DNA of 64,000 bases, taken from contig NC_013960.1 of NCBI RefSeq assembly GCF_000024725.1, positions 62,001 to 126,000 of the forward strand, in the 5' to 3' direction. Numbering within the stretch: the first letter of the stretch is position 1; every line of letters begins with the position of its first letter. Of the stretch, positions 9,293 to 32,745 are shown piece after piece. Source of the DNA: Nitrosococcus halophilus Nc 4. GTDB lineage: Bacteria > Pseudomonadota > Gammaproteobacteria > Nitrosococcales > Nitrosococcaceae. The notes under the pieces were generated by a model, which saw nothing but the letters and a program-made list of their open reading frames with translations, searched no databases and was not told where the DNA came from. The translations under genes and the position numbers were made by a program.

Positions 9293-9294
9293 TT

Positions 9295-10422: not shown

Positions 10423-10442
10423 GGCCTGACTGCTCGGTATTC

Positions 10443-11531
<1,089 letters not shown>

Positions 11532-11576
11532 TCATGGCATGCATGGGATGGTGCCCATCACCGTGGGCATAGGCTT

Positions 11577-11834: not shown

Positions 11835-11853
11835 ATCTTGTCCTTACCTCGCC

Positions 11854-12168
11854 TCAACCTGCTGAGATATTATCAATTTGCAACTCCGTAAAGTACTGAC
11901 GATGTCCCATCTGTTTACGGTGATGTTTGCGGCGACGGAGCTTAATGATCTTGATTTTTTCACCGCGACCCTGGGTTTTGACGGTAGCATTCACCTTCCC
12001 ACCCTCAACATAGGGGGCGCCGACCTGAATATTATCGCCATCAGCTACCAGGAGCACCTGATCGAGTGTAATATTGGCGCCTTCATCGGCGTCGATTTTT
12101 TCCACCCGGAGGGTGTCTCCTTCTTGGACACGGTATTGCTTCCCGCCAGTTTTAATGACTGCGTACAT
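11854..12168 (-). CDS. rplU: Ribosomal protein bL21
   Basis: Large-subunit ribosomal protein. The 104 residues begin [17 protein letters not shown] and contain the basic [14 protein letters not shown] segment near the end, as in the family. It is the first gene of the rplU-rpmA pair and is divergent from ispB, the usual gammaproteobacterial arrangement. Confidence 0.98.
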
Positions 12169-12272
12169 TATGGTGCTTTCCTGAAAATTGGGTTATCCCA
12201 CTCGGTGGAAAGAAAGGGAATAAAAGCTCAGCACTTTGTGCTAAGTGCATGGCTCGATAATCTAGGCTCACA

Positions 12273-12301
12273 ATTTTAAAATTACTCATTCAAGTGGTCA
12301 A
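12273..12301 (-). promoter_or_regulatory. Sigma-70-like promoter of rplU-rpmA
   Basis: On the - strand TTGACC (12301-12296) and TAAAAT (12278-12273) are exactly 17 bases apart, each matching consensus at 5 of 6 positions. The expected start point lies about 95 bases before the rplU ATG. Confidence 0.7.
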
Positions 12302-12366
12302 GGGAAATAGTGTAATATAGCCAGCCTAAAATGCTTAAGCATTAAGCATAGTCAGAATATTGTCAC

Positions 12367-12395
12367 TTGACACCGAACGCGGTGCTTTTTAGCAT
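12367..12395 (+). promoter_or_regulatory. Sigma-70-like promoter of ispB
   Basis: A perfect TTGACA (12367-12372) is followed after 17 bases by TAGCAT (12390-12395). It lies about 35 bases before the ispB start codon and is oriented away from the rplU promoter. Confidence 0.6.
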
Positions 12396-12430
12396 GCGCA
12401 AGTTTTGCCCTATTTAATTTTGAGATACCC

Positions 12431-13399
12431 TTGGATATACAGTCCACCTACGATCTAATCGCTGATGATATGCAGGCCGTTAATGGCTTGATCCAGAAAC
12501 GGTTGCATTCTGATGTGGTACTCATCAATCAGCTAGGACATTATATTATCAACAGCGGCGGCAAGCGTTTGCGCCCGGTGGTGGTCCTATTGAGTGCCCG
12601 CGCCTTTGATTATCAGGGCTCATGCCATATTGATATCGCTACCATTATTGAGTTCATTCACACGGCGACTTTGCTCCATGACGATGTGGTGGATTCTTCG
12701 GAGTTGCGGCGGGGGCAAAAAACCGCCAATAGCATCTGGGGTAGTGAAGCGAGCGTACTGGTGGGCGATTTCCTCTATTCCCGCGCCTTCGAGATGATGG
12801 TGGATGTCAATAGCATGCGGGTCATGGAGATTCTCGCCCGAACCACCAATACCATTGCTGAAGGTGAGGTGATGCAGCTCCTCAACTGTCATGACCCGGA
12901 TACCACCGAAGAGCGGTATTTGGATGTTATCCGCAGCAAGACCGCCAAATTGTTTGAGGCGGCTACCCAACTCGGAGCGGTATTGTCCTGTCGGCCAGCC
13001 GCAGAGGAAGAAGCGATGGCCGCCTACGGTATGCACTTGGGAACGGCTTTTCAGCTCACCGATGATGTGCTGGATTATAGCGCTTCCAGTGACGATTTAG
13101 GGAAGAATATCGGCGATGATTTGGCGGAAGGCAAGCCGACGCTGCCACTTATCTATGCCATGCGCAACGGCATTCCCTCCCATGCTGAGGTTATCCGCAA
13201 TGCGATTGAGGGCGGGGGTCGTGATAATTTAGCTGAAGTGATCGAGGCCATTGAATCAAGCGGCGCTATCGCGTACACTGCGAAAACGGCCCGCCGTGAG
13301 GCCGAAAAGGCGATACAAGCAATTAAAAAAATTCCCGCTTCGCCCTATCAAGAAGCCTTATTGAATTTGGCGAAGTTTGCGGTCTATCGGACCTACTGA
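12431..13399 (+). CDS. ispB: Polyprenyl (octaprenyl) diphosphate synthase
   Basis: Builds the long isoprenoid side chain of the respiratory quinone. The 322-residue product, close to E. coli IspB, has both Asp-rich motifs: LLHDDVVDSS near residue 85 and QLTDDVLDY near residue 215. GGKRLRP near residue 43 binds diphosphate. The start codon is TTG, giving DIQSTYDLIADDMQ. Chain length (C40 or other) cannot be read reliably from the sequence. tRNA-Pro follows 5 bases after the stop. Confidence 0.93.
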   Translation: MDIQSTYDLIADDMQAVNGLIQKRLHSDVVLINQLGHYIINSGGKRLRPVVVLLSARAFDYQGSCHIDIATIIEFIHTATLLHDDVVDSSELRRGQKTANSIWGSEASVLVGDFLYSRAFEMMVDVNSMRVMEILARTTNTIAEGEVMQLLNCHDPDTTEERYLDVIRSKTAKLFEAATQLGAVLSCRPAAEEEAMAAYGMHLGTAFQLTDDVLDYSASSDDLGKNIGDDLAEGKPTLPLIYAMRNGIPSHAEVIRNAIEGGGRDNLAEVIEAIESSGAIAYTAKTARREAEKAIQAIKKIPASPYQEALLNLAKFAVYRTY

Positions 13400-16666: not shown

Positions 16667-18304
16667 GTGACAGCGCCGGGGATCTCAGTCAACAGAGTAA
16701 TTAATGGCATGAAACGAGCGGCTCTGATGCGGCTGTTAGGTAATGATTTAGTTCATACTCTTGAGCAACTTACCAAAGATACACCGTCCGATGAAGCCCT
16801 TCGCAAGGTCGCGCAAGTTCTATACGGAGACAATAATCCGGCTGCGCTGCAAGAACAGGTTGTTCGAAATCAAATCATCGATGCGCTACCGCTTGAAAAG
16901 GCCCGCGAATTAACGCAAAAACTTGGTCTTTTTTCGGCTGGCAACATCTATCAAAGCTTAAAGAGATTCGATTCGAAATCTGACCCTAATAGAGCAGCTG
17001 CTCTTCGTAGTTTCTTTGGCATTGTCGAAGACATGACTGCCCAGCCGATCCGCAAGCCAGCAGTCGGCGAGGTGTCTCCGGAATATGGTCTTTTTGACCA
17101 TCAGCGTGATGTAGCTCTGCGCACCCGCCAAGCGCTCAGCGAGTCGCCACATAAAGCTGTGGTGCATATGCCTACGGGTGCAGGTAAAACGCGCACCGCG
17201 ATGCACATCTTAGCAAGGCACCTTCTCGAACGAGGTCCCACTCTTGTCTGTTGGCTTGCGAATAGCGCGGAGTTGCTTGAGCAAGCAGCAGAGGATTTCG
17301 AGAAGAGCTGGCGTGTGCTTGGTGATCGTCCGGTTAAGCTTTTTAGGTTTTGGGGTGATCGGTCCATCGATCTTCATACGCTACGAGACGGTGTTCTTGT
17401 TGCTGGTTTCGCAAAAATGCATGCGGCCTATATGCGAGAGCAGAATGCGTTCATTGCGCTCGGTGACCGTACGTCTCTGACTATTGTCGATGAAGCCCAC
17501 CAGGCAATCGCACCGACTTACCGTTCGGTAATTGAAGCTCTTTTCACCAAGCGCCCGCAAAACCAGCTGCTTGGTCTGACGGCAACGCCCGGTCGGACAT
17601 GGGATAATATCGAGGCGGACGCCGAATTATCGGCGTTTTTCGGCAATGCAAAGGTGACCCTCTCAGTAAGCAAGTACAGCGAACCCGTCGAATTTCTTAT
17701 GGCTGAGGGATACCTTGCGAAGCCTGTTTTTCGAACGCTTAGTTTCGAAGGGGCGATGGATTTACCCGGTGCTGAGGAGCTTGAGGGTGGGAGCACAAGC
17801 GACCTATCCGATAATGCCCTAGATACGATTGCCCGAAATGGCGAGCGCAATTTTCTCATCATTCAAGCCATTGAGGAGCTTTTAAGTCGACATAAGCGTG
17901 TGATCGTTTTCGGTGCCTCTGTCCGGCATGCACATCTAATCGCAGGACTTCTCATCGCACGAAGCCACGACGCCAAGATGATCACCGGTGAGACGCCTAT
18001 CGCGCGACGCGAACGACTGATTCGCCAGTTTAAGAGCGATAGCCCCCAGTCCATGATTATGTGCAATTACGGTGTTTTGACTACCGGATTTGATGCCCCC
18101 AAGACGAGTGCAGCAGTGATTGCACGTCCTACGAAGTCCCTCGTGCTCTACAGTCAGATGGTTGGGCGAGCGACTCGCGGCCCACGTGCTGGTGGTAATG
18201 AAGTTGCAGAAATCGTGACGGTTATTGACACTGCGCTACCCGGATTCGGCAGCGTCGCAGAGGCATTCAAGAATTGGGAGGACGTTTGGCATGAACATGA
18301 GTAG
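16667..18304 (+). CDS. DEAD/DEAH-box SF2 helicase of the restriction module
   Basis: A 545-residue protein starting at GTG after GAGGGGGATAA. An N-terminal region of about 140 residues is unassigned. Then come the SF2 motifs: Q-like GLFDHQRDVALRTRQ, Walker A MPTGAGKTR (K174), LTIVDEAHQA (D275-H278), GLTATPG, and in the second RecA lobe MCNYGVLTTGFDAPKTSAAV and motif VI QMVGRATRG (R501, R504). It is similar in layout to helicases of restriction systems (UvrB/R-subunit-like). It overlaps the GHKL ATPase gene by 14 bases and a PLD-type gene follows. It probably unwinds or translocates along invading DNA. Confidence 0.85.
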   Translation: MTAPGISVNRVINGMKRAALMRLLGNDLVHTLEQLTKDTPSDEALRKVAQVLYGDNNPAALQEQVVRNQIIDALPLEKARELTQKLGLFSAGNIYQSLKRFDSKSDPNRAAALRSFFGIVEDMTAQPIRKPAVGEVSPEYGLFDHQRDVALRTRQALSESPHKAVVHMPTGAGKTRTAMHILARHLLERGPTLVCWLANSAELLEQAAEDFEKSWRVLGDRPVKLFRFWGDRSIDLHTLRDGVLVAGFAKMHAAYMREQNAFIALGDRTSLTIVDEAHQAIAPTYRSVIEALFTKRPQNQLLGLTATPGRTWDNIEADAELSAFFGNAKVTLSVSKYSEPVEFLMAEGYLAKPVFRTLSFEGAMDLPGAEELEGGSTSDLSDNALDTIARNGERNFLIIQAIEELLSRHKRVIVFGASVRHAHLIAGLLIARSHDAKMITGETPIARRERLIRQFKSDSPQSMIMCNYGVLTTGFDAPKTSAAVIARPTKSLVLYSQMVGRATRGPRAGGNEVAEIVTVIDTALPGFGSVAEAFKNWEDVWHEHE

Positions 18305-20120
18305 CGAGGCAGTACAAACAACACATTACCATGATGGGGAGGTCATTCCGCCTTCGCTCGCCGTCAAGGCGATGCGGGATAGTGGATACAAGAATACCGC
18401 ATACGCGCTTGCCGAGTTGATAGACAATTCCATCCAGGCCGGTGCAAGCTTTGTAGAAGTCTTCTGCATTGAAAAGCGTGTTCTGGTAAGGGAACAGAAG
18501 CGCAGACGCATCGCAGAAATCGCTGTGCTAGACAACGGAACTGGCATGGATAGCTCTATCCTGCGTCTGGCTCTCCAATTTGGCAACGGCACACACCTCA
18601 ACGACCGCGACGGAATCGGACGTTTTGGTATGGGATTGCCGAACGCTTCCATCTCCCAGTGCCGGCGTGTTGACATTTGGACCTGGCAGGCTGGACCAGA
18701 TAATGCCATTCATACATATCTTGACGTGGACGAGGTCGAGTCAGGAAAGATGCGAGCGGTTCCAGTACCCAAAGCCAATCCTGTGCCACACGAATGGCGT
18801 GACCGATCTGAGGAAATTGGAACGAGCGGAACTCTAGTAATTTGGAGGAATTTCGAAGAGCATCGACTAACTTGGCGAAGCGGCCGTTCAACCCTCGAAA
18901 ACACCGAAATCCTTGCAGGGCGTATGTACCGAAAGTTCATCAATGAAGGAAAAGCCGATATCCGTCTGGTGGCGCTCGAAGCTAACGAAATTTCCTTCAA
19001 CCAACGAGTCCGTGCTAATGATCCCCTCTATTTAATGACATCGACTTCCACGCCGGCGCCATTCAACAATAAACCCATGTTTCAAATCTGGGGTGAGCAA
19101 CATCTTGAATTTTCCATCAACTACCAGGGACAAATCCACAAAGTGGCCGTGCGTATGTCCTGGGCAAAACTAGAGACGATTCCGCAAGATGGCACCGATC
19201 CAGGCGGGACTCCTTATGGTAAGCACGCTGCAAAGAACATTGGTGTTTCCATTGTTCGTGCTGGTCGAGAGCTTGAATTGGATAATTCCTGGGCAATTGG
19301 GTATGACTCACGAGAAAGGTGGTGGGGCGTAGAGGTGGAATTTCCTCCTGCTTTAGACGAGGTGTTTGGTGTCACCAACAATAAGCAGGCTGCTACTGTC
19401 TTCTCTCATATGTCCCAATTCGAGTGGAAAAATGAGGCTGAGCCCGGTGAGAAATATATGGACTTCGTGCGTCGTCTCGAAGAAGAGGGCGACACCCGCT
19501 ACCTTCTTATTGGTATCGTCAATTACATTAAAGACCAGCTCAACCAGATACGTGCCCGCATTCAAGATCAAAGGAAGGGGAGGCGTAGTGGTGGAAAGCG
19601 GCATGATGACGTATCGGTTGAAGACACTGCCACAACCAAGTGGAAGGATCGAGCAAGCAGGGGTTATAAGACCGAGGCGGATGATCAAGATTTCGATGAT
19701 GATGCCCAGGATCAGCTTGTTGATGATTTGGTCCAAAACAAAAAATACAATGAGGAAGTCGCACGGGAAATTGCTGCCGCAGTTAAGGCGAGGGACCGCA
19801 AGATCATCTTTGTGACAGCCGAAGCTGACTCGCAGGCATTCTTTAACGTGGATCTGCGGCCTGGCGGCATCACGGAGATCGTGTTCAACACCCGTCATCC
19901 TGCCTATGAAAAACTCTTGAAGACTCTCGATATTGATGTTTCCGAAGCTTCATCGAGCGATTTGGTTTGGCGAATCGAGAATGCCTCTAACACCCTTAAA
20001 TTGCTCCTTGCCGCGTGGGCTCGCTACGAAGAAGAGGATGTTCCTTCGCGAGAGAAGATTAGGGATATCCGGCATGAGTGGGGAAAGATGGCGAAGAACT
20101 TCATCTCTGAGAAGGAATAA
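18291..20120 (+). CDS. GHKL (HSP90/MutL-like) ATPase of the restriction module
   Basis: A 609-residue protein. The N-terminal GHKL ATP site is complete: N box AYALAELIDNSIQAGAS (E42, D45, N46), G1 DNGTGMD (D81-G85), G2 GIGRFGMGLPNAS, and a later TLVIW strand. The middle part continues like a transducer domain. Around residues 440-500 lies a charged, low-complexity linker (DDQDFDDDAQDQLVDDL). The frame is open further upstream, but the ATG at 18291 has GGGAGG 9 bases before it. Such ATPases dimerise on nucleotide binding. The neighbours suggest it gates the helicase and nuclease partners; the exact role is unknown. Confidence 0.82.
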   Translation: MNMSSEAVQTTHYHDGEVIPPSLAVKAMRDSGYKNTAYALAELIDNSIQAGASFVEVFCIEKRVLVREQKRRRIAEIAVLDNGTGMDSSILRLALQFGNGTHLNDRDGIGRFGMGLPNASISQCRRVDIWTWQAGPDNAIHTYLDVDEVESGKMRAVPVPKANPVPHEWRDRSEEIGTSGTLVIWRNFEEHRLTWRSGRSTLENTEILAGRMYRKFINEGKADIRLVALEANEISFNQRVRANDPLYLMTSTSTPAPFNNKPMFQIWGEQHLEFSINYQGQIHKVAVRMSWAKLETIPQDGTDPGGTPYGKHAAKNIGVSIVRAGRELELDNSWAIGYDSRERWWGVEVEFPPALDEVFGVTNNKQAATVFSHMSQFEWKNEAEPGEKYMDFVRRLEEEGDTRYLLIGIVNYIKDQLNQIRARIQDQRKGRRSGGKRHDDVSVEDTATTKWKDRASRGYKTEADDQDFDDDAQDQLVDDLVQNKKYNEEVAREIAAAVKARDRKIIFVTAEADSQAFFNVDLRPGGITEIVFNTRHPAYEKLLKTLDIDVSEASSSDLVWRIENASNTLKLLLAAWARYEEEDVPSREKIRDIRHEWGKMAKNFISEKE

Positions 20121-20123
20121 TGA

Positions 20124-21074
20124 ATGCGATCGCCGGGCGCGAACCTTTTAGAACTCTGCCAGACAGCTCAATATGAGGTCGTACTTGTTGCGCCTTTTAT
20201 GAAGGTACGTGCTTTGGAGGCAGTACTTGGCGCTATCCCAGAGAATGTTACCTCGATCAAATGCGTTACGCGCTGGCGGCCTGAAGAGATCGTTGCTGGC
20301 GTAAGCGATCTCGAGGTTTTTAATCTTGTCACTCAGCGCAGCGCGGCTGCACTTTTTATACAGCCTCTCCTACATGCGAAGTACTTTCGCGCCGATAACA
20401 GCTGTCTTGTTGGATCCGCGAACCTTACTCAGAGCGCGCTGGGATGGGCGATGCCGGCAAACCTAGAGTTACTGATTAGCCTCCCGTCAGACACCGAATC
20501 GCTACCTGAGTTCGAACGTATGCTGTTTTCAACGTCCATTCGGGCTTCTCAAACATTCAAAAATGAAGTAGCCAAAGCTGCTGAGACAATGCAGGGCGAA
20601 GGTATTAAATTCGTAACCGAAGAGCTAGGCGCGGAGGAAGAGGAAATCTCTATCCCGCCTCAATATTGGCTGCCTCTCTGCACACGGCCGGACTTACTCT
20701 ACAGCATCTATGTTAATAGAAATATAGATCAGATCGTTGGTTGGACCTTAGAATCGGGGCGTCGGGATATCCGTGCACTGTGTATTCCACCAGGCCTATC
20801 TGAAAAGAATTTTCGACGATATGTTGCGACCCTATTACAGCAGTCCCCACTTGCCCAGAGAGTGTATGAAAAGGCGCGAGAACCGATCAGTCCAACTAAA
20901 GGCCAAGAGTTCATCAAATCTAATGCGACAGACGATTACTTATTGTATAGCGCCGAACAGCACTGGGAAACATTGCGTGCCTGGCTTCTCCATTTCTTAT
21001 CCGGAAAGTATCGTCAACTCTCCGGATCGTTCGATTTACAGAGAGGCTCTGAAATCGGATCGATGCGCTTTTGA
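20124..21074 (+). CDS. PLD-family (HKD) nuclease-like protein
   Basis: A 316-residue protein beginning 3 bases after the previous stop. Residues 84-100 read HAKYFRADNSCLVGSAN: the HxK and GSxN parts of a phospholipase-D nuclease motif, with Asp91 between them one residue short of the usual spacing. Only one HKD motif is visible, as in PLD nucleases that work as dimers (Nuc/BfiI type). The C-terminal half, with LPLCTRPDLLYSIY and WTLESGRRDIRALCIPP, is not recognised. It is the likely cutting component of the helicase-GHKL-PLD set. Confidence 0.75.
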   Translation: MRSPGANLLELCQTAQYEVVLVAPFMKVRALEAVLGAIPENVTSIKCVTRWRPEEIVAGVSDLEVFNLVTQRSAAALFIQPLLHAKYFRADNSCLVGSANLTQSALGWAMPANLELLISLPSDTESLPEFERMLFSTSIRASQTFKNEVAKAAETMQGEGIKFVTEELGAEEEEISIPPQYWLPLCTRPDLLYSIYVNRNIDQIVGWTLESGRRDIRALCIPPGLSEKNFRRYVATLLQQSPLAQRVYEKAREPISPTKGQEFIKSNATDDYLLYSAEQHWETLRAWLLHFLSGKYRQLSGSFDLQRGSEIGSMRF

Positions 21075-21186: not shown

Positions 21187-23517
21187 ATGTCAATCGATAT
21201 TGAGAATATCTTCAAAGCAACGGCGCAGAGTACCTGGCATTTTCTGATTACTAATGGCCAGGGGTGTTACATTCCTGCGTATCAGCGGCCTTACTCGTGG
21301 GACGAAGGTAATGTTGAGCGTCTTTTTGAAGATGCAGCTCACGGTATGAAATCGCTACTGAAGCGAGGAGATACGATCAGTTTTCTGGGTACGATTATCG
21401 CTTTTCACGATACCAAGCATAGAACTGTTCAACCTATCTTCCAGCAGGAAGTTGCTTCTAAGGTTATGACCATTATCGATGGTCAGCAACGCATCTGTAC
21501 ATTTCTTATGGCCAATATGGTCATTCACGATCACGTACGTCGTATGGCGTCTAAATTTAAGAATAAAGAAGAACCTCAATTTACGTGGTTGGCTGAACAA
21601 ACCCAGCAACTAATTGCTGAGCTTGAGGATTCATTTGTTCTCGACATGAAGATAGGCGAGGGAAATTACCGATATTACCCTCGCATGATTCGGTCCTATG
21701 AAGACGTGTGGTCGAAGCGCAAAGGACAGGCGAAGTACAATAGCCCTATTGCCCGCTTGATTTGGGAATTTTTCTGCTATCAGAAAACCGAAGAAACAAA
21801 GCCATTTAGGTATATACCTAAGGATAATGTCGGAAATCCGCATCCGCATTATCAGCCGGTGGTGACAGTTTTTAAGTACATCCAACGGCAAATTGATCAG
21901 ATCACCGGCAAAAAGGCATCGGAAGCAGATTTTCCGGACGTCCTAGCGATCATTCAATCCGAAGATTTCATTGATGCCATATGGGGGTTCGACCTTCCGA
22001 GTGAGGTGAAAACTTACATAATAGATCATGTGGATGATACCTTGTATGACCTTTACTGTCAGCTTCTTCGGCTGATTGTATTTGCCCGATATCTCAATAA
22101 CCGCATGGCATTCACGGTCGTTACTACAAGAAGCGAAGACGATGCCTTCGACATGTTTGAGGCTCTCAATACGACCGGTGAACCTTTAACGGCCTTTGAA
22201 ACTTTCAAGCCTAAGGTGATCGACGAAGAAGGAATTTCCAAGTATGAACACTCTCCGTCATATAAGTGTATTTCACGGATTGAAGAGTATCTAGAGAACT
22301 TTAGAAAAGCTGAGCAGAAACAAAAAGCTACCTCGGAAATGCTAGTTCCCTTTGCTTTAGCTGAGACGGGAGACAAGCTTCAAAAACGACTTAACGATCA
22401 ACGTCGGTATCTGCGGGAACAGTATGAGGGAGGAGAGTTATCTTCAATAAATGAAAAACGTGAGTTCGTACGTCGCCTTGCTTATGTAGCTTCTTTCATG
22501 AAAAATGCGTGGGATACGGAAACGGCGAAGAAGCCGAGTTTTTTTCCACTCACGGTTGTGGATGATGCTGTCCTAGTTGGGTTTGAGGCACTACGCGAGT
22601 TGAAGCACCATATCACTATCGCGCCCCTCTCTCGATTTTATGGCAGGGCGCTGGAGACAGACGATGAAACCGAGCAAGCTACCTGCACAGCAGAGTTCGT
22701 GGACGCTATAAAGGCTACTGTAGCCTTCTCGATGCTGTGGCGTGGCGCATTCGGCGGCACCTCGAACATCGATAGACATTACCGCGATATCATGCGTCAG
22801 AGTACGGGTAAAGATAAGATTCCTCCATTGGCCAAGAGGCCCAAGAGTGGCACAGGAGCGGTTTCGATCGCTAACTACAAGAAGGCACTTCGGACGATCT
22901 TGGAAGAAAAGGGAAGCATCACCAGCAGAGACGACTGGGTGAAGGCTACCGCACGAACGCCTGTTTACAAATACCCCGTAATCGCACGCTTCTTACTTTT
23001 CCTTGCCTCCGATGACGCTATCGTGGATAAGAGTGAACCAGGGCTGGTTATTCGTGGTCGCAAGGGGTTAGCCTCAATGCTGGCCCTGAACCGTTGGCGG
23101 GACAAGGATTACTTCACAGTTGAACACATCGCACCGCAAAGCAACACGACTGGTTGGCAAGCGGACATCTACGATGATGCTGATGCCATAAACCGGCTTG
23201 GCAACCTAATCCTGCTGCCGCCAAACGAGAACTCGCTGCTCGGAAATCGGTCTTGGGAACACAAGCGACTCCTATATCGTGTCCTGGCCGCAGAGGATCA
23301 GGAGAGCTTCGATAAAGCAAAGGCAGCCTGTAGCGCGAAGGGCCTAACGCTTAGCAAAAAAGCAGAGGAAATCCTCGATAAGGCAAACTACCTCGGCTTA
23401 TGCAAAAGCGTCGCATCAAAAAACGATGACTGGAGCTTAGGTTTCATTGAGAAACGCTCTCGTTGCATCGCGGGCTTAGCATGGGATAGGTTAGCACCCT
23501 GGCTTGATTTCATATGA
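21187..23517 (+). CDS. sspE: SspE-like DUF262/DUF1524 phosphorothioate-sensing nuclease
   Basis: The 776-residue protein has an N-terminal DUF262 (ParB-like) domain with YIPAYQRPYSWDE (29-41) and the NTP-hydrolysis motif DGQQR (98-102). Its C-terminal DUF1524 HNH domain has VEHIAPQ (H647) and RLGNLILLPPNENSLLGN (670-687). This is the architecture of SspE, which senses phosphorothioated host DNA, hydrolyses GTP and nicks unmodified phage DNA. GmrSD-type enzymes share the two domains, but the stop lies 4 bases from the convergent sspD, which strongly favours SspE. A 112-base gap with its own possible promoter separates it from the PLD gene. Confidence 0.88.
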   Translation: MSIDIENIFKATAQSTWHFLITNGQGCYIPAYQRPYSWDEGNVERLFEDAAHGMKSLLKRGDTISFLGTIIAFHDTKHRTVQPIFQQEVASKVMTIIDGQQRICTFLMANMVIHDHVRRMASKFKNKEEPQFTWLAEQTQQLIAELEDSFVLDMKIGEGNYRYYPRMIRSYEDVWSKRKGQAKYNSPIARLIWEFFCYQKTEETKPFRYIPKDNVGNPHPHYQPVVTVFKYIQRQIDQITGKKASEADFPDVLAIIQSEDFIDAIWGFDLPSEVKTYIIDHVDDTLYDLYCQLLRLIVFARYLNNRMAFTVVTTRSEDDAFDMFEALNTTGEPLTAFETFKPKVIDEEGISKYEHSPSYKCISRIEEYLENFRKAEQKQKATSEMLVPFALAETGDKLQKRLNDQRRYLREQYEGGELSSINEKREFVRRLAYVASFMKNAWDTETAKKPSFFPLTVVDDAVLVGFEALRELKHHITIAPLSRFYGRALETDDETEQATCTAEFVDAIKATVAFSMLWRGAFGGTSNIDRHYRDIMRQSTGKDKIPPLAKRPKSGTGAVSIANYKKALRTILEEKGSITSRDDWVKATARTPVYKYPVIARFLLFLASDDAIVDKSEPGLVIRGRKGLASMLALNRWRDKDYFTVEHIAPQSNTTGWQADIYDDADAINRLGNLILLPPNENSLLGNRSWEHKRLLYRVLAAEDQESFDKAKAACSAKGLTLSKKAEEILDKANYLGLCKSVASKNDDWSLGFIEKRSRCIAGLAWDRLAPWLDFI

Positions 23518-23521
23518 TTGA

Positions 23522-24358
23522 CTATTTATGACACGCCAGACATACTTTCGCTTGTCCATATAAATCATCAATATCAAGAGGCTCACCGTCCGGGCGCAGC
23601 GGATTAACCTGTTGTTTTATCCTCATTCGCTCGATTCGACGTGTGTGTTCTTCCTTGATCTGTTCAATCCGTTCAGGCCGGGTTAGTTCTTCCAATGATT
23701 CTCCCTGGCTCCAGGTAAAGGGGGAGCCGTGCTCGACGGCATTTTTTTCGTACGCTTTCGCTTCCTCAAATGCCTCGGGGTGCTGTTCCATTAAGCGTAC
23801 CCATTCGATTTTCTGCTGAAAAAAACAAAAAGTACAACCGCTGCGGGTACGCCAAGAATAATAATCTGGCAAGCCTAGACCCGATCCCTCCAGAATTTCA
23901 AGCACACCAGCCTTATCAATGCCAGCTTCTTTGAAGGGCAACCGTACTTTCAGATTCTTGTGGCGGGAGGTGTAGCCTTCTCGGTATTCTTCATCGCTGC
24001 GGATGGCTACATAGCTATAGACTTTTATCCCGCTTTCGAGCAGCGGTCGGATCCACTGCTCGAAGGGTCTTAGCTTGAGTTGGCGAGTACACCAACGGGC
24101 CTGGGGAGAAGGTAGAAATGAGTTGTATTGCTTGAGCCAGAAATCGAAATCTCGGTCGGGATTCAGTTGGCGGATGGGCTTACCGAGAAACCCCTCTAAC
24201 CGGCCAAGAAATTCATAGACCTCAGGCAACTCCTTGCCGGTATCCGTGAAAAAATAGTCGATCTCAAACTCGGGAAAATTTTGACGCATGTACACAGCTA
24301 GCGCCGCGCTGTCGCGACCGCCAGATAGACCAAGCACATGCTTCTCCTTTATATCCAT
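23522..24358 (-). CDS. sspD: Phosphorothioation PAPS-reductase-like protein SspD
   Basis: The 278-residue protein belongs to the PP-loop ATP pyrophosphatase family, as DndC does. It has the PP-loop LSGGRDSAAL (12-17 core), TDTGKELPE, WCTRQLK (C90), and RSGCTFCFFQQ (C175, C178). A C-terminal CLACHK pair follows. In DndC-type proteins such Cys residues hold an Fe-S cluster. It likely activates the DNA backbone with ATP for sulfur insertion, using sulfur from the desulfurase. Its ATG shares one base with the sspC stop (TAATG), so the two are coupled. Confidence 0.9.
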   Translation of the reverse strand: MDIKEKHVLGLSGGRDSAALAVYMRQNFPEFEIDYFFTDTGKELPEVYEFLGRLEGFLGKPIRQLNPDRDFDFWLKQYNSFLPSPQARWCTRQLKLRPFEQWIRPLLESGIKVYSYVAIRSDEEYREGYTSRHKNLKVRLPFKEAGIDKAGVLEILEGSGLGLPDYYSWRTRSGCTFCFFQQKIEWVRLMEQHPEAFEEAKAYEKNAVEHGSPFTWSQGESLEELTRPERIEQIKEEHTRRIERMRIKQQVNPLRPDGEPLDIDDLYGQAKVCLACHK

Positions 24359-27300
24359 TAAGAAACTTTCTTTTTGCCTACTATCTCTTTTTCTTCCGCA
24401 GCAAATTCATCATCAGGCGCATTTAGATATCGGGCACTTAGCTCAGCAAGAGCTGCTAAAATCACGTTTCGTCGCCTCGCCTCAGCAGCATCTAGCGTGG
24501 TTTTCATCTGGGAGATGAGGGTATTGACGCTCTCCCGCTCCGAGTCGGTGATATCAAACTCGCCTAGAACCGGCGTCGGTCGACCCCCAACACCTACTAC
24601 CACTGCCATCGCCTGCCTCTTGTCCGGACGCCCCTTTACTCGCGCGAAAGCCTCTGCCCGAATGAATTTCTGTGCCATGTCGGATAGCTCAATGGCTGCC
24701 TTGTCGATATCCGGATCCACCCAATCCCGGGGTGGTTTATTCGCTGCAAGACTCGCGAGGCCCTCTATTTCTTCATCGCGGCCGTTGTAGGATGCCATCC
24801 GGTTAATAAAAGCCTCCAAGCGAAAATCACCGGCGAGCTGCCGGATATTTTCCGCGCGGGCACGCAGCTCCGATAGGGCCTGAGGCGAATCATTAGGTAC
24901 CTGTAATTCTACAAGCAATGTCTCCCGCAGGCGGCGTAGCACTGTTGGATAGGTTTCTCTCAGCTCACTTAGTCCTTCCCGAACCTGCTGGATGATTTTT
25001 AGCAATCCTTCTTTCTTAGTTAAATCGACCGATGAGCCAAACAGCGCTGGGATATCGTCAAATAAAAATTTATTGGGATCATTGGCCTGCTTAAACAATT
25101 GTCGTATCCGGAGAGCATTACTTGAGAGTCGCATAGTACGCTTTGTCCAGGCTGGCAATTGATCATAAATAGCAATAAGACCTCGGGCTACATCAATGGG
25201 TGTTAGATCCTGAAGAGAGTTGTTTTTATCTAGATCACGTACTACGTCTGCCATACCCGAAAGGAGACGCCGAGACACTTTGGACAGATCCATCCACCGC
25301 AATTGGATAGCCGATGGATCCTTGGCTAGATAGTCGACATCAAGGTCTTGCAGTCGTGCCTGAAAGATACCCCGGCGATAAAATGCAACGGTATCCCGGC
25401 AGGAAAGAGCGAAAGCCACGGCTAGTACAGGCATTAATCCCTCTTTGAGCCCCAAAGGAGGTTGTCGCCATACTTCATAGATTTCTGAGACAGTGACCGT
25501 TCGAGTGCGGTTTTGTTGCAGGAAATCGCGTGCTGCCTCCCACAGAGGCGTAAGGCCGCAGGGATCATTGGTTTTATGAGGTGCTACAAATTGCCAACCA
25601 TGGGAGGTCTCAGTGTAAAGGCCCGTAATCTCCAGAATGGAGGCAAACAATCCGCCCTCTGCTGGAAAGCCATCGATACCTAGCCGAGGCTCGCCTTCCT
25701 TCATCACCATTTGACGCAATAGTGCATTTTGCGCTGCCACAGCGTTGCTCGATGGTTTGATGCGATTGAGTAACTCATTATGAAGCCGAGGCGCTTTGTG
25801 AAAGCGTTTATTAGCTAAGTCTGATGCGAGGAAGGAAAGTTGTGCTTGGGTTAAACGTTTCCGGGGGTGATGCTTTAGGTACCAGGCAGTGTTATCGAAT
25901 GCTTGATGAAGTTCATCTTCTAGCTGCCCTTGTAAGGCGGCAATTCGCACCCGCACTTCGCGCCGGGCGACTGCATCGCCGGTAAGTTCTGGATGGTTAA
26001 GACTGACATCCTCTACGGCTAGTAATTCTTTGGCAAGATCGATAATCGTCCAGGACCGGCTCGATAGACCAACGACGATATCCCAGCCATCAGCCTGGCG
26101 GGCGGCTTTACGGCATAGTTTCTCGGCTACCTCCTCGGGCTCATTCTCCGTTGGCAGCGTGAGTACAAACTGGCCCATCGTGCCCTGATCCGGTGAGAAG
26201 CGGCTGACCTCCTCCAGCAGCTTATTCAGGGGCACCAGCACCACATCAAACCAGCATAGGGCGCCAGTCCTATGATAGTGGCGCTTAGCTAGTATGGGAT
26301 GTAGGCCGGCGAGCTTGCGAAGGGCGGCGAAATCGACGTCCTGAATATTAGTCAGCGCCTGTTCCACAGCTTGCTCGATATCGAAATCGCTTCCTGCATA
26401 AATCGTATAGGCGTCAGCGAATTTTCGGAAGATAATGAAAGAGCGGCGCTCTAGTTCTTTGATCGCTTTTTCAACTCTTCTGGAAGAGACATTAGGGACG
26501 GCGGCCTTTAGCAACGGCAAACTTGGAGCAAGACCGGAACGTTCTTTGAATAGGTCGACGAGGGCGATGGTTTTGAGAAGCTGTGCTTGCAATGGATCCC
26601 CTCCCATGCCCTCGCAGCGTTCCACGGCTTCCACGGCAAGAGCCCAACGGTGCCCATCTGGGGAGGCTAAAATAGAAGATTCAAGGTTGAGGCGTAGATA
26701 GTCCCAAAGACGGTTTGGATTATAGAGATCTTTTTCAGATCCGTGGCGCAAGAAATCCTGAAAGCCTTGTGGCTCGGCGGAGTTGAGAAAGCCGAAAATA
26801 CTGCGCTGATTCTGCCCAAAGCGTCGGCGGGAAATGGGGCCGAGCAAGGTGGCAACAATAGGGTTGAGGGGCCAACAGTCTTCTAGGGTCACTTCTAAAT
26901 GGGGGGAGGCACCTGGTCGCACCTTGCGAATTAGGTTGGCGACAGTCTGAGAGATTTGGTGAGAGGATGAGGAACGGCGATTGTCCTCAATAGCGCGAGC
27001 AAGGAGTTCGAGCTGTTCCTCACCCGCTGTATTGACGGCCAGGTCCATAAATCGGCCTTGGATTTTCGACCATTCATCGCGCATCTCGCGTGACAAGCGC
27101 TGCGCATATTCTTCAAACGCTTGATGGAGGATGCCAACGATGATAAGGCGACCATTGCTGCGGGAGGCAACTTCCGCAAGCTGCTGGAAGAGATAAATAT
27201 CCCTGTCTCCATGGACGGCTCCCTCTAAGAATTTTCCCATCTCATCAAGAAAGACGATTAGACCACCGGAACTACGTAAATTCTGCCTTGCAATAACTTC

Positions 27301-27762
27301 TAGTTCAGAGATGAGGGCTTGCTCACGCCATACTTTTGGTGCTTTCCCCTTCCAGAACTTAGCTTGGGCGAGGGTTTCTCCAATTACTTGTGCAGGGTGA
27401 TCCTTCTGGCCCACTACCGGCAGAATGCGCCAACCCTTCGATTTTGGTGGCAGTGCTTCCCAGACGGCTTCTGCGGCTTTGCTGCCAATGGCATGGTATG
27501 CTTGTTTCCGACGATGATTATTTCCGTCGAGAAGGGCGCTGAGCGCAATAACCAAGCTCGATTTTCCACTGCCATACGGTCCGGTCCAGGTAAAGGCGCC
27601 TTGTCCAGTTTCAGCCACATGATTGGCCATGGTACGGAGTACCTCAGCCGAGGATTTCGGACAGATAAATCCTTCCAAAGCATTGGCTTTGGTTAAGTCT
27701 GTATCGATGCGGACAGAACGTTGGAAGCGTCTCGCAATATGCACGCAATCGGCTAGGCTCAT
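24358..27762 (-). CDS. sspC: Phosphorothioation ATPase SspC
   Basis: A 1134-residue ATP-binding protein with Walker A GPYGSGKSS (61-69) and Walker B GGLIVFLDEMGKF (D173, E174) near the N-terminus, followed by a long region without recognisable domains. SspC of the Ssp single-strand phosphorothioation system is an ATPase of this kind acting with SspB and SspD. It is the middle gene of three that are joined by one-base TAATG overlaps, so stoichiometric synthesis is likely. A P-loop this close to the N-terminus with a very long tail resembles BREX/DUF499-like ATPases, which is the main alternative reading. Confidence 0.85.
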   Translation of the reverse strand: MSLADCVHIARRFQRSVRIDTDLTKANALEGFICPKSSAEVLRTMANHVAETGQGAFTWTGPYGSGKSSLVIALSALLDGNNHRRKQAYHAIGSKAAEAVWEALPPKSKGWRILPVVGQKDHPAQVIGETLAQAKFWKGKAPKVWREQALISELEVIARQNLRSSGGLIVFLDEMGKFLEGAVHGDRDIYLFQQLAEVASRSNGRLIIVGILHQAFEEYAQRLSREMRDEWSKIQGRFMDLAVNTAGEEQLELLARAIEDNRRSSSSHQISQTVANLIRKVRPGASPHLEVTLEDCWPLNPIVATLLGPISRRRFGQNQRSIFGFLNSAEPQGFQDFLRHGSEKDLYNPNRLWDYLRLNLESSILASPDGHRWALAVEAVERCEGMGGDPLQAQLLKTIALVDLFKERSGLAPSLPLLKAAVPNVSSRRVEKAIKELERRSFIIFRKFADAYTIYAGSDFDIEQAVEQALTNIQDVDFAALRKLAGLHPILAKRHYHRTGALCWFDVVLVPLNKLLEEVSRFSPDQGTMGQFVLTLPTENEPEEVAEKLCRKAARQADGWDIVVGLSSRSWTIIDLAKELLAVEDVSLNHPELTGDAVARREVRVRIAALQGQLEDELHQAFDNTAWYLKHHPRKRLTQAQLSFLASDLANKRFHKAPRLHNELLNRIKPSSNAVAAQNALLRQMVMKEGEPRLGIDGFPAEGGLFASILEITGLYTETSHGWQFVAPHKTNDPCGLTPLWEAARDFLQQNRTRTVTVSEIYEVWRQPPLGLKEGLMPVLAVAFALSCRDTVAFYRRGIFQARLQDLDVDYLAKDPSAIQLRWMDLSKVSRRLLSGMADVVRDLDKNNSLQDLTPIDVARGLIAIYDQLPAWTKRTMRLSSNALRIRQLFKQANDPNKFLFDDIPALFGSSVDLTKKEGLLKIIQQVREGLSELRETYPTVLRRLRETLLVELQVPNDSPQALSELRARAENIRQLAGDFRLEAFINRMASYNGRDEEIEGLASLAANKPPRDWVDPDIDKAAIELSDMAQKFIRAEAFARVKGRPDKRQAMAVVVGVGGRPTPVLGEFDITDSERESVNTLISQMKTTLDAAEARRRNVILAALAELSARYLNAPDDEFAAEEKEIVGKKKVS

Positions 27763-28721
27763 TAGGCTGCCTCCCGGTTACCACGAGGGGGATAATCGAG
27801 CTCCATGAAGCTAAAGGCGAGATCTTCAGTGAGCTCCGCTTGCCGGAGGACCTGTTTCAGCCCGGTTGTCTCCGACCAGCGAAAAATGCCCCCACTTGCC
27901 TCTTCTAAATTGGAGAGTCTCTCTGCAAGTGCAAATTCATCAAGCAAGAGCACCCGGCCCGGCGACCCCGGCTCATGAGCGATATTTTCGAAAGAAAGGG
28001 TGCGGGCAGTAGAAGAGTGTCGCCAGAAATCCGTCAGCGCATATAGAAACATGCCTTTTCCTAAGTTGGGTTTGGCTCCGCGCACGAAACGAAATCCTTC
28101 TCGCCGACCGATGGGTTTAATAAGTCCAAGCTCAGTCAGCGGGGACTCTAAAGTTTCCTCATGTCCTGCGCCTGCCAAGGAAGGGCGGGCAACATAGGTA
28201 CGCACGAAGCACTCTACGTCCCGTTTGAGCGTCGTGGTGGCCACACGGGACCATGTCCGATCCTTGCAGAGTTTCTCTAGGCCCTGAACGAGGTGATTCC
28301 GATCGAAGGTAGCACTATGAAAATAGTTGAATGCCCAGAACCAGGTGGTTTTTTCTGTGTAACTCGCTAAATGCCAATGAATAACCCAAAGCGTGGTGGG
28401 ATGTTCCATGAAGGGGTCAAGCCCCCTGTCTGCAAAAATCTTTCGTCCAAGCCGGGTTGTAAAGATTTTTGGTCCATTAGAGGGATTTTCCAGAACGTTT
28501 GCAGCTGTTGCCCAGTGGCGTATGGAGGCAACCATGTTTTTTCCTACCCCGAATCGGGCGATAGCGTCGTCACTTAGGAAAACAGATTTGTTTTCCTCCT
28601 TATTCTCCGTAGCAGCAACAGTATCAAATGCTTTCTTCAACCACCCGTAGCGTAACGGAAATGTTTCGTGTCCGGAAAATTGGGGACGATAATCGCTTTG
28701 ATAGAGGGGTCTGCGCGCCAT
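27762..28721 (-). CDS. sspB: Phosphorothioation protein SspB (DUF4007)
   Basis: The 319-residue protein has the DUF4007 hallmark FSGHETFPLRYGWLKKAFD at residues 15-33 and later LGVGKNMVASIRHWA-like sequence (FGVGKNMV near 59). SspB is the DUF4007 component of the Ssp system and has been reported to nick DNA at the modification site before sulfur insertion. It is the first gene of the sspBCD operon and is divergent from the cysteine desulfurase across 157 bases. Confidence 0.9.
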   Translation of the reverse strand: MARRPLYQSDYRPQFSGHETFPLRYGWLKKAFDTVAATENKEENKSVFLSDDAIARFGVGKNMVASIRHWATAANVLENPSNGPKIFTTRLGRKIFADRGLDPFMEHPTTLWVIHWHLASYTEKTTWFWAFNYFHSATFDRNHLVQGLEKLCKDRTWSRVATTTLKRDVECFVRTYVARPSLAGAGHEETLESPLTELGLIKPIGRREGFRFVRGAKPNLGKGMFLYALTDFWRHSSTARTLSFENIAHEPGSPGRVLLLDEFALAERLSNLEEASGGIFRWSETTGLKQVLRQAELTEDLAFSFMELDYPPRGNREAA

Positions 28722-28878: not shown

Positions 28879-30060
28879 ATGGAAATAGACGGAACGCTTT
28901 ACTTTGACTATCAAGCCTCGACCCCTATTGATCCGCGAGTTTTAGCGGCAATGATGCCCTTCTGGCGCGAATCTTTTGGTAACCCGCATGCTTCCGATCA
29001 CAGACTAGGGTGGCGAGCAGGGCTGGCCGTCGATGAGGCTTGTGAGCGGGTCGCGCGGCTTATTGGCGCGGATGCCGATGAGATTGTGTTTACCTCGGGA
29101 GCAACGGAAGCCAACAATCTTGCCCTTCTTGGCTTATCCCGTCGCCGATCAGGAGGGAATCGCCGGCGCATTCTTGTCAGCGCCATTGAGCATAAATGTA
29201 TTCTTAGGGCGGCGCAGGCTGTATCGGAGCAGCTTGGCTTTTCCGTGGAGCTTTTGCCGGTATGCTCTAACGGATGTGTGGATCTCGATTATCTTTCCCA
29301 AACCCTCGATCAAGATGTCCTGCTTGTATCAGTCATGGCAATGAACAATGAAATTGGTACCATTCAGGATCTTCGTGAAATCTACAAAATAATATCTAAA
29401 TCAGAGTCTTACTTTCATTGTGATGCTGCTCAGGCCCCTGTTGCCCTGGATCTAAATTACTTGGCTGAAACGGCTGACATGGTGAGTCTATCGGGGCATA
29501 AAATGTACGGGCCACAAGGTGTTGGTGCCCTTTATATTCGACGTGACCTACAACGGGAGATTGAGCCTCTTTTCTACGGCGGCGGCCAACAAGCAGGGCT
29601 ACGGTCAGGTACTGTGCCTCTCCCATTAGTAATAGGTATGGCAAAGGCTGCCGAATTAGTTACTTCGTCTGAAGCCAATGAGGAGCGGAAGCGAGTACAA
29701 GAAATGCGCAATCGATTCGTGTACTTACTCAAGAAACGCATTCCAAGTCTTGTTTTGAACGGGCCTGAATTCTCCGTCCGCCATCCGGGAAATGCTAACC
29801 TGCGTTTTCCCTCTGTAGCTGCAGAAGATTTGCTGTTAGCACTTCAGCCGCGCCTTGCGGCCTCTACCGGTGCTGCTTGTACGACAGGGATACCAGAGCC
29901 TTCCCATGTACTGAGAGCTATTGGCCTAAGTGCAGAGGAGACGGATGCTTCGATCCGTTTTAGTTTTGGGCGCTTTACTGAAAGTGCCCATATTGATGAA
30001 GCGATTGAGCTGATCTCAACAGCTTATGCCCGATTAATTGAGAATATGGGTATTCATTAG
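28879..30060 (+). CDS. sspA: Cysteine desulfurase of the phosphorothioation system
   Basis: A 393-residue PLP enzyme that takes sulfur from cysteine. It has YFDYQASTPIDP at the start, FTSGATEANN, the PLP-stacking His105, the PLP aspartate D182, the Schiff-base lysine K208 in LSGHKMYGPQG, and the persulfide cysteine C334 in STGAACTTGIPEPSHVLR. It resembles DndA/IscS. Its place opposite sspBCD identifies it as the dedicated sulfur donor, and all catalytic residues are intact. Housekeeping IscS would be expected in an isc cluster, which is absent here. Confidence 0.88.
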   Translation: MEIDGTLYFDYQASTPIDPRVLAAMMPFWRESFGNPHASDHRLGWRAGLAVDEACERVARLIGADADEIVFTSGATEANNLALLGLSRRRSGGNRRRILVSAIEHKCILRAAQAVSEQLGFSVELLPVCSNGCVDLDYLSQTLDQDVLLVSVMAMNNEIGTIQDLREIYKIISKSESYFHCDAAQAPVALDLNYLAETADMVSLSGHKMYGPQGVGALYIRRDLQREIEPLFYGGGQQAGLRSGTVPLPLVIGMAKAAELVTSSEANEERKRVQEMRNRFVYLLKKRIPSLVLNGPEFSVRHPGNANLRFPSVAAEDLLLALQPRLAASTGAACTTGIPEPSHVLRAIGLSAEETDASIRFSFGRFTESAHIDEAIELISTAYARLIENMGIH

Positions 30061-30186: not shown

Positions 30187-32745
30187 ATGGCTTCTGTCCC
30201 TAGCAAGAAAGTCGCGCGGCAAATTTATGTCCATGTAAATTATATAAATAGCATGGATACAACGCTAAAAAGTGCTCTTTTAGAAGCTGAACGTTTGGCT
30301 GGCGTGTGCCGATCAGATCATTACAACGTGGTCCGCTATGAGTTAGGCACATCTTGTATTTCGCTCCTTTATTACCCAAATTTTTTTGAAGAGCCTTTCC
30401 CCGCTCTAAGGGAAAGTTGGCGAGTCGATCTGGCAGCAGGGAAGTTGAGCTACCGGACCTACAAGGATTCATTGAATCCCCCCATTCTGCATCGCAAAGA
30501 ACTTCTTATTTCGGATGATCATCCTCGATGGTGCCAGTATAAGTCGCTGACCGAGGCTGCGGAATCGGTTGGGTTATTTGCTGAACCGACTCGAATTGGA
30601 TATCAACGTCAATGGTTGCAGTTAGTTCGAGAAAAGGGCTACCAGATCATTGGCCACGAACTTGTCCCCATCGGTAACGATGAATCGCTGCAGGATGATG
30701 AGGCACCTCTTCATGCGGATTGGTCAGTAGCCCGCCAGCTTACGGCGCTGACCCGCTACGGTCTATCAGCACCTATCCAAAGCCTCGCGCGCTACGGTTT
30801 TCTAGATGGTTGTAACACGATCTTTGACTATGGTTGTGGCCGTGGTGATGATGTTCGGGGATTAGTTGAAAATGGCCTGCAGGCGGCGGGTTGGGATCCA
30901 TATTATGCTCCGGATAACCCTATTACTCAAGCGGATATCGTCAACTTGGGTTTTGTGATCAATGTTATAGAGGACTTTGACGAGCGTGTTGATGCCCTAG
31001 TGACGGCTTTTTCTCTTGCGAGGCAGTTGCTGGTTGTCTCTGTAATGCTTGTCAACCAAAACAAGATTCAAGGACAACGTTTCAAGGATGGTATGCTCAC
31101 GAAGCGTGGAACCTTTCAGAAATACTATACACAAGCAGAGATAAGAGACTTTCTTGAAGATCTCTTACATGAGGAACCGATTCCTGTCGCACCTGGTGTT
31201 TTTTTTGTCTTCCGGGATAAAGACGCTGAACAGCGATTCTTAGTCAATCGTTTTCGAAGTCGAGGAAATGTGCTCCGTGTCCCATTACTGTTCCCACGTG
31301 AAAGGCAGTTGAGGAATCGAAATGAGCGCACCGATAAAAAATACGCCTATTATCGTGAATCTCTTGATCGATTGTGGAATTTATGGGTATCTCTAGGGCG
31401 TAAGCCGGACAAAACTGAGGTTGAAGGGCAAGTAGCTCTTATAGAAGGCTTTGGTTCCCTAAACAATGCCTTTCGATTCATCAAAGCGCGGAAAAATTTG
31501 ACAGCTCTCGAGTGCTCTCGGCAAACTCGAACGGCTGATCTCGAAGTTTACTTTGCCCTTTGCGAGTTTAAGAGGCGAAAGCCTTATAAACGCCTAGAGC
31601 ATGGGCTCCAGCGAGACATTAAAGCGTTCTTTGGAAGTTATACTAATGTGAAACAAGTTGCCCATGAGTTGCTGTTTCAGATCGCTGACGTGGAAGCGAT
31701 AAATCAGGCGTGCCAACAGGCATCGGAGCAGGGGCTTGGCTGGCTAGTCGAGCGCAAATCTCTGCAGCTGCATGCAAGTTTGGTCGAAAAACTCTCGCCC
31801 CTTCTCCGGGTTTATGTGGGCTGCGCCACTGTCATTTATGGCGATTATCACGATGCCGATCTTGTGAAGATTCACATTGCCTCTGGCAAGGTCAGTTTCA
31901 TGAAATATGATGATTTTGAGAGAAAACCGCTGCCGCGAATGACTGAAAGAGTCAAGGTTAAGCTTCGAGAGCAAGATATCGAATATTATGCCTATGACGA
32001 TAACTATACCCCCCCTTTCCTCTATAACAAATCTCGTTACATTAACGAAGAATTTCTCCATTACCCCGAGCAGGTGGTTTTCGATCAAGCGTTAGAGAAA
32101 TGTGGACTATTTGACTTTGCTGGCTACGGCCCAAATCCAGATAATTTTCTGGAAATACTTTCGAGAAATCGGCTGGTCATTGAAGGATTTAGATTGGTAC
32201 GTAGCCGGACAATTCCGAACCTCGACAGTCCCTGTGGCCGCTACTTTATATTTCGTCAGTTGATTGAATGCGGAGAAACTCAGGCGCGAACCGGCCTGGA
32301 AAACCTGCCAGAACAACCGGAAACTTACAACGCCCTCTGTGACTTGACGACGCAGGTCTTGGATCCTGTCATCGATTACTTTGGTATGATTCGCCTAACC
32401 TATGGGTTTTGTTCACCGGCTCTGGCGAAAAAGATCCCCGGGCGCATTTCCCCTCAGCGAGACCAACATGCGGCTTGCGAATTGAATCGGCGGGGAAAAC
32501 CCATTTGCGATCGACTAGGCGCTGCCGTGGATTTTATCGTTGACTACGAAAGTATGCTCGAGGTGGCTCAATGGGTGGTTGCCAATACGCCTTTTGATCG
32601 GTTGTATTTCTACGGCGATGACAAGCCCATCCATGTGAGCTTTGGGCCTGACAATAGCAAGCAGATCGTCCGGATGATTTTAGGTAAGTCTGGAAAACTC
32701 CTTCCGCAAGTTACCCCGATGGAAGCATTTTTATCTCTAGAATAG
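30187..32745 (+). CDS. Phosphorothioation-associated methyltransferase with duplicated flanking module and M15-like tail
   Basis: An 852-residue protein with several parts. Residues 48-160 and 559-671 are two copies of one module that align without gaps. Between them, residues about 175-355 match the DNA-phosphorothioation-associated putative methyltransferase family: FDYGCGRGDDV (SAM site), ADIVNLGFVINVIED and DGMLTKRGTFQKYYTQ. Residues about 705-835 look like a Hedgehog/DD-peptidase (M15_3) fold: LDPVIDYFGMIRLTYGF, then DQHAA (H761), GAAVDF (D782) and PIHVSF (H816). The family's activity is unproven. It lies 126 bases after sspA on the same strand. An ATG at 30253 is an alternative start. 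Confidence 0.85.
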   Translation: MASVPSKKVARQIYVHVNYINSMDTTLKSALLEAERLAGVCRSDHYNVVRYELGTSCISLLYYPNFFEEPFPALRESWRVDLAAGKLSYRTYKDSLNPPILHRKELLISDDHPRWCQYKSLTEAAESVGLFAEPTRIGYQRQWLQLVREKGYQIIGHELVPIGNDESLQDDEAPLHADWSVARQLTALTRYGLSAPIQSLARYGFLDGCNTIFDYGCGRGDDVRGLVENGLQAAGWDPYYAPDNPITQADIVNLGFVINVIEDFDERVDALVTAFSLARQLLVVSVMLVNQNKIQGQRFKDGMLTKRGTFQKYYTQAEIRDFLEDLLHEEPIPVAPGVFFVFRDKDAEQRFLVNRFRSRGNVLRVPLLFPRERQLRNRNERTDKKYAYYRESLDRLWNLWVSLGRKPDKTEVEGQVALIEGFGSLNNAFRFIKARKNLTALECSRQTRTADLEVYFALCEFKRRKPYKRLEHGLQRDIKAFFGSYTNVKQVAHELLFQIADVEAINQACQQASEQGLGWLVERKSLQLHASLVEKLSPLLRVYVGCATVIYGDYHDADLVKIHIASGKVSFMKYDDFERKPLPRMTERVKVKLREQDIEYYAYDDNYTPPFLYNKSRYINEEFLHYPEQVVFDQALEKCGLFDFAGYGPNPDNFLEILSRNRLVIEGFRLVRSRTIPNLDSPCGRYFIFRQLIECGETQARTGLENLPEQPETYNALCDLTTQVLDPVIDYFGMIRLTYGFCSPALAKKIPGRISPQRDQHAACELNRRGKPICDRLGAAVDFIVDYESMLEVAQWVVANTPFDRLYFYGDDKPIHVSFGPDNSKQIVRMILGKSGKLLPQVTPMEAFLSLE

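Follow-up and report, generated by a model that had tools for sequence, protein, structure and literature searches.

A predicted zinc-binding M15_3/Hedgehog-fold domain fused to a phosphorothioation-associated methyltransferase in an Ssp locus

The C-terminal ~170 residues of a phosphorothioation (PT)-associated methyltransferase of Nitrosococcus halophilus Nc 4 are, as sequence comparison and structure prediction indicate, a genuine M15_3/Hedgehog-fold domain related to the M15 lysins of phages. The gene lies in a stretch of 64,000 nucleotides, the whole of which is referred to here as the window, and occupies a single 852-residue open reading frame (ORF) at 30187-32745 of the forward strand with no internal stops. 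A sequence-only reading of the window had proposed both halves of this fusion. The methyltransferase half is borne out by a match to the NCBIfam profile TIGR04096 (dnd_rel_methyl, DNA phosphorothioation-associated putative methyltransferase), which spans residues 181-672 at E 7.1e-185 and 615.3 bits (curated cut-off 150) and covers positions 2-477 of the 478 in the profile, nearly the whole model. The full-length protein was modeled by AlphaFold2 with a mean pLDDT of 86.8, and its layout is as follows.

30187..32745, forward strand: fused protein of 852 aa, TIGR04096 methyltransferase plus C-terminal M15_3/Hedgehog-like domain (ORF reading, TIGR04096 match, AlphaFold2 model)
30202..30681, forward strand: alpha+beta repeat copy 1, ~residues 6-165 (hhalign against copy 2; second TIGR04096 stretch in the N-terminal part)
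30754..31221, forward strand: class I SAM methyltransferase core, ~residues 190-345 (model Z 14.2 to 3sm3; motif conservation)
31744..32220, forward strand: alpha+beta repeat copy 2, ~residues 520-678 (hhalign against copy 1)
32236..32742, forward strand: M15_3/Hedgehog-like domain, predicted to bind zinc, ~residues 684-852 (tblastn, hhalign, AlphaFold2, fold matches)

The methyltransferase core is thus flanked on both sides by copies of one unnamed alpha+beta domain, which match each other in hhalign at 98.3% and E 2.4e-14. Its core motifs FDYGCGxGxD, WDP, and NxGFVxNxIE are kept, and the first of these, the SAM motif, is invariant in 58/58 rows. DNA amino-methylases carry the motif [DNS]PP[YFW] after strand 4, the place where NxGFVxNxIE is read in this protein, and this replacement weakly disfavors an ordinary base N-methylase. 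A frameshift or assembly join as the source of the fusion was ruled out, as 57 distinct ORFs (58 rows when that of the window is counted) extend from the first repeat into the M15-like domain; two of them, L062 and L066, end at a contig end inside that domain.

The surrounding genes encode the following Ssp proteins.

28879..30060, forward strand: SspA, cysteine desulfurase, directly upstream of the fused gene
27762..28721, reverse strand: SspB (DUF4007)
24358..27762, reverse strand: SspC ATPase
23522..24358, reverse strand: SspD, PAPS-reductase-like sulfurtransferase
21187..23517, forward strand: SspE, GmrSD-type protein

The fused gene starts 126 bases past SspA on the same strand, SspB, SspC, and SspD are on the opposite strand, and SspE lies beyond them. 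With all five genes side by side with it, the fused gene is therefore part of a five-gene Ssp PT locus. This arrangement resembles the SspABCD-SspE PT-sensing defense system in having all five genes and differs from it in the extra methyltransferase/M15 protein, which no PADLOC model matches and which is not known to be a member of the SspABCDE set. Directly before SspE, at 16667-21074, are genes for a helicase (partial RadD and PbeA matches), an MzaB-like HATPase, and a DrmC-like PLD protein. This trio, whole or in part, also occurs near Ssp genes in L046, L068, L085, L026, and L125, and is a recurrent Ssp-associated module.

Both sequence and structure comparisons place the C-terminal domain in the M15_3/Hedgehog fold. 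A tblastn search of phages with this domain returned 47 records at E 10 or better, of which those at the weak end are apparently unrelated; among these matches are lysins annotated as M15, the best at E 5e-8 and 33% identity. Four of the matched lysins in turn match Peptidase_M15_3 (PF08291) at 6e-15 to 1e-19, and an alignment of four phage lysins compared with the C-terminal domain by hhalign gave 99.3% and 1.9e-20. The AlphaFold2 model of the domain, made with 65 sequences, has a pLDDT of 93.1 and a pTM of 0.89. Its closest solved fold is the Streptomyces albus G zinc DD-peptidase 1LBU (Z 12.1 over 123 residues, 2.4 A), followed by Hedgehogs at Z ~6, then ChiX and the lysin LysB4 at ~5, and other folds at 3.6 or below. 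Foldseek searches against viral models gave a phage M15A protein as the best match (2e-10), while those against the PDB gave no match under E 0.001, the best being 1LBU at E 0.024 with a probability of 0.99. Sequence searches found no M15 entries in the PDB, no M15 link was found via PHROGs, and a Pfam search with the window sequence gave no match, the PF08291 gathering score not being reached; sub-threshold Pfam matches to Peptidase_M15_3 occur in 18 of the 65 alignment members (best E 0.019). Homology, fold match, and conservation together rule out a chance motif. The fold that had been proposed for this tail from the letters is hence borne out, with comparison to M15 and Hedgehog structures giving a match and not the absence of one.

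The relatives of the domain differ in how far the likeness extends. Phage PF08291 lysins, such as those of the Pelagibacter phages HTVC027P and Lederberg, have the same order of elements, the SQH/DQH..D..H ligands, and 33-35% identity, but they carry the Arg of GFRS and the Glu of QLIxE, where the window domain has Cys and Tyr, an insert with E765 and C774, and the fusion to a methyltransferase. The DD-peptidase 1LBU, a secreted wall enzyme with a catalytic Arg and His, shows the best fold likeness yet only 15% identity. For the N-terminal signaling domains of Hedgehogs the likeness is at the level of fold, and no sequence match was found; Sonic Hedgehog has E177 as a base and calcium sites. 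TIGR04096, for its part, stops before the M15-like domain, and 6/11 sampled TIGR04096 proteins are without a fused domain.

Conservation was read from an alignment of 75 rows, i.e., the window and 74 others, of which 70 are distinct and which include partial and frameshifted ORFs as well as near-copies. The 74 rows derive from 69 of the 73 loci described below together with L075-L078 and L080, matches with fewer than 120 aligned residues, L001, and L079 being dropped, and their pairwise identity goes down to ~49%. In the window domain, LDPVIDYFGMIRLTYGF precedes GFCS (residues 740-743), which is followed by DQHAA (H761), GAAVDF (D782), and PIHVSF (H816), all at the places where they had been quoted before. 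The positions of interest are these.

32410..32412, forward strand: Cys742, at the Arg position of M15 (S)GFRS (Cys in 73/75 rows and 5/5 cyanobacterial proteins; Arg in 4/4 phage rows)
32467..32469, forward strand: His761, predicted metal ligand 1 (75/75 rows)
32470..32520, forward strand: region containing the insert between the first two ligands, ~residues 762-778, with Glu765 and Cys774 (alignment)
32530..32532, forward strand: Asp782, predicted metal ligand 2 (75/75 rows)
32611..32613, forward strand: Tyr809, at the Glu position of M15_3 QLIxE (gap-free reading, Tyr in 74/75 rows)
32632..32634, forward strand: His816, predicted metal ligand 3 (75/75 rows)

H761, D782, and H816 are each kept in all 75 fused or partial rows, in 5/5 cyanobacterial stand-alone proteins, and in 4/4 phage M15 lysins, in agreement with the His-Asp-His ligands proposed earlier. 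From sequence and model, the three probably meet around a metal and bind zinc. The residues that accompany these ligands in ordinary M15 enzymes are replaced. At the Arg position of (S)GYRS/GFRS, Cys stands in 73 of the 75 rows, Ala in one (L043), and Ser in one (L026), and the separate proteins of G609 and G626 have Ala and Thr; the earlier description of GFCS in place of GYRS thus holds for nearly all rows but not for these four proteins. The same four exceptions rule out C742 as an obligatory catalytic thiol. The Glu of QLIxE before the last ligand, present in 4/4 phage rows and in L143, L146, L147, and L079, is Tyr in 74 rows and Ile in one on a gap-free reading. An acidic residue within the loop 810-812, common but not invariant, occurs in 70/75 rows, so a displaced base there is possible.

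A Cys-containing insertion between H761 and D782 had also been proposed; in this protein its cysteines are C764 and C774. The insertion and C774 stand, as E765 and C774 are both present in 75/75 rows and 5/5 cyanobacterial proteins and are gaps in 4/4 phage rows, but C764 is poorly kept (Cys in 2/58 rows). Four cysteines are conserved, those at 683, 695, and 774 in 58/58 rows and that at 742 in 56/58. Beyond the ligands, D759, Q760, E765, C774, D804, and S818 are invariant in all 75 fused or partial rows and in 5/5 cyanobacterial stand-alone proteins, which points to a functional and not a decaying site; D759, E765, and C774 are newcomers relative to ordinary M15. With Arg replaced by Cys, the QLIxE Glu by Tyr, and an invariant E765/C774 insert added, ordinary M15 chemistry is unlikely, and because the usual cutting residues are replaced, a job different from wall cutting is probable.

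Relatives of residues 690-852 were found at 73 genome loci, including a few near-copies and one short match (L074), and the fusion recurs at most of these loci. Among 398 sampled genomes of the phylum, 11 have TIGR04096. Matches to the domain profile at E<1e-30, among the best eight or fewer candidates per genome, fall in seven genomes, all of them inside these 11 (Fisher p 1.1e-12, or 4e-11 excluding the window's own genome; the sample behind the domain profile was taken as the same 398 genomes, its handles agreeing). Among the 11 TIGR04096 genomes, five have the domain fused, two (G609 and G626, both proteobacterial) have it as a separate gene near the methyltransferase, and in four none was seen. 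Because its strong matches fall only in TIGR04096 genomes, fused or separate, the domain is an accessory module of this methyltransferase, and since four of the 11 show none, it is not needed for the core function. In G626 the separate domain gene immediately precedes that of the methyltransferase, both on one strand. The domain is C-terminal in the fusions, so a fusion that simply broke in two would not give the G626 arrangement.

Weaker matches to the domain profile, again among the best eight or fewer candidates per genome, occur in seven more genomes (E 5e-11 to 1.8e-5). Five of these loci were read, leaving out G604 and G380; L143, L146, and L147 were rejected as the same domain, being ordinary M15_3 with Arg after GY, SQH, and QLIxE. 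L144 (1411-2028) and L145 are stand-alone M15_3-like proteins that keep the Arg, lack the His of the last ligand, and have a similar H-x3-E...C stretch; neither of their two genomes gave a TIGR04096 match. Searches of viral contigs with the window domain and with the Aeromonas copy gave no match. A full methyltransferase-M15 fusion (L157) was the sole viral-contig match with profile A4; it is on an IMG/VR contig that may be a host or mobile-element contig, and adjoins MoxR/VWA-like genes, these families being read by eye.

Plasmids also carry the pair. The methyltransferase part matches 36 plasmid records, 26 of them over at least 80% of its length, and the domain is present in 6/36: fused in three (Massilia, Piscinibacter, and Methylibium), a near neighbor in two, and distant in one. 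Among the plasmid matches, that of Thiothrix fructosivorans spans 28% only. The near neighbors are separate domain genes on the cyanobacterial plasmids of Pseudanabaena galeata and Leptolyngbya BL0902, where DUF4007/SspB and SspC relatives are found as well, and the distant one is on the Calothrix NIES-4105 plasmid, which has the domain and, far away on the record, a partial methyltransferase. No Ssp relatives of the window proteins were found within 6 kb on each side in the Calothrix plasmid and two Nostoc plasmids. In Geminocystis NIES-3709, a stand-alone domain is located between a cysteine desulfurase and a helicase/HATPase/PLD trio like that of the window, on a record without a TIGR04096 match. 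The Aeromonas caviae locus L093 was considered as a case of the domain paired with the repeat without a methyltransferase and was rejected: of repeat 1, the next gene keeps just the beginning, which runs on into a different family, and transposases are nearby, so we read it as a broken locus. In this locus (8489-13165), the TIGR04096-type repeat start is fused to a family of tandem paralogs that have a C-terminal region in common.

A search for the same fusion in other Ssp or Dnd loci found it in both kinds. We probed PT genes in 16 fusion genomes chosen from the 73 loci: an SspD relative is present in 9/16, and DndC in two of nine probed, a set that includes all seven without SspD, both finds being among those seven. 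SspD or DndC is hence present in 11/16, and neither was found by these probes in 5/16. In L026, L052, L056, L060, and L068 the fusion has a complete or almost complete Ssp set around it, and in Thauera (L043) DndC is a few kilobases from the fusion on the same contig. DUF4007/SspB-like proteins are among the neighbors in L018 (a weak match, E 0.01), L027, and L036, and HerA/DndH-like ATPases adjoin the fusion in L018 and L036. In these same three loci, the fused methyltransferase is beside proteins of 1350-1500 aa (that of L036 SspC-like by PADLOC), and the loci look like a variant PT or HerA-capture system. In a tree of 79 methyltransferase parts, a quick one with long-branch warnings, two changes of state suffice for the 65 fused rows and the separate or absent forms are scattered, a pattern compatible with a single fusion origin with later split or loss.

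We propose that the M15_3/Hedgehog-fold domain may be a cytosolic partner of the TIGR04096 methyltransferase in PT loci, mostly fused to it and sometimes encoded by a nearby gene; its cytosolic location is probable. Our preferred reading, held tentatively and with confidence a little under even, is that the site is an active, re-tooled metal centre acting on something other than peptidoglycan. Zinc would be held by H761, D782, and H816; in place of the missing M15 Arg and Glu, the insert would supply Glu765 as a candidate base together with Cys774. The re-tooled site would then hydrolyze or trim a target that the methyltransferase or its PT complex presents. This target could be the methylated product, a partner protein, or a nucleotide or adduct, but not peptidoglycan, and the repeats on either side of the methyltransferase core may hold DNA or protein in place for the two sites. 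Against such catalysis, the loss of Arg and Glu also fits a non-catalytic site. That the metal site acts on DNA or a nucleotide, as had been suggested earlier, is thus one possibility beside a role in binding only.

A pseudo-enzyme, whose zinc pocket only recognizes a ligand or partner and which serves to regulate or recruit either the methyltransferase or the Ssp complex, is a real contender, which we nonetheless think somewhat improbable. It agrees with the replaced Arg and Glu, with the accessory nature of a domain not seen in 4/11 TIGR04096 genomes, and with the precedent of Sonic Hedgehog, whose zinc centre, according to PMC4102407, serves receptor recognition without cleavage, the same source arguing that ShhN is probably a peptidase as well, one regulated by calcium. 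It fits less well with D759, E765, and C774 being invariant from Proteobacteria to Cyanobacteria in fused and stand-alone forms, as more than the three ligands is kept.

Unlikely, in our view, is a working peptide or peptidoglycan cutter that serves as effector or toxin of the defense system: the best solved fold is a zinc DD-peptidase (1LBU) and the best annotated phage sequence matches are M15 peptidases or lysins, but the domain is the tail of a methyltransferase and presumably cytosolic, and its Arg and Glu are replaced by Cys and Tyr. Just as doubtful is a two-active-site backbone enzyme, in which the methyltransferase would mark PT DNA, possibly on sulfur, and the zinc site with the thiols C742 and C774 would remove or proofread the mark or the sulfur. 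Very improbable is a passenger, i.e., one old fusion inherited with the methyltransferase and functionless in the PT system. The quick tree, with its long-branch warnings, would allow it, as two changes of state are enough there for the fused rows. Against it, two plasmids and two genomes encode the domain by a gene of its own close to the methyltransferase, and the ligands persist among rows whose pairwise identity falls to ~49%.

In the literature searched, main texts mostly of openly available papers, we found no description of a methyltransferase-M15 fusion, and neither a function for TIGR04096 nor a characterized member. The words 'hedgehog' and 'M15' are absent from the main texts, as accessible, of two recent comparative surveys (PMC10853773, PMC12839542), and the fusion was not found described in the accessible parts of PMC3226654, PMC8569181, PMC8416521, PMC10470545, and PMC3927764 either.

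A recurrent PT-locus methyltransferase, to which the literature searched assigns no job, gains a concrete handle through the attached predicted zinc fold: its three ligands, the position of the replaced Arg, and the invariant Glu and Cys can all be mutated. If the improbable two-site enzyme were true, one chain built on a phage-lysin fold would both write and erase a second backbone modification. A catalytic site would mean that a cell-wall fold has been turned to DNA-backbone or defense chemistry; with a non-catalytic one, the domain would be an intracellular bacterial counterpart of the receptor-binding zinc centre of Hedgehog.
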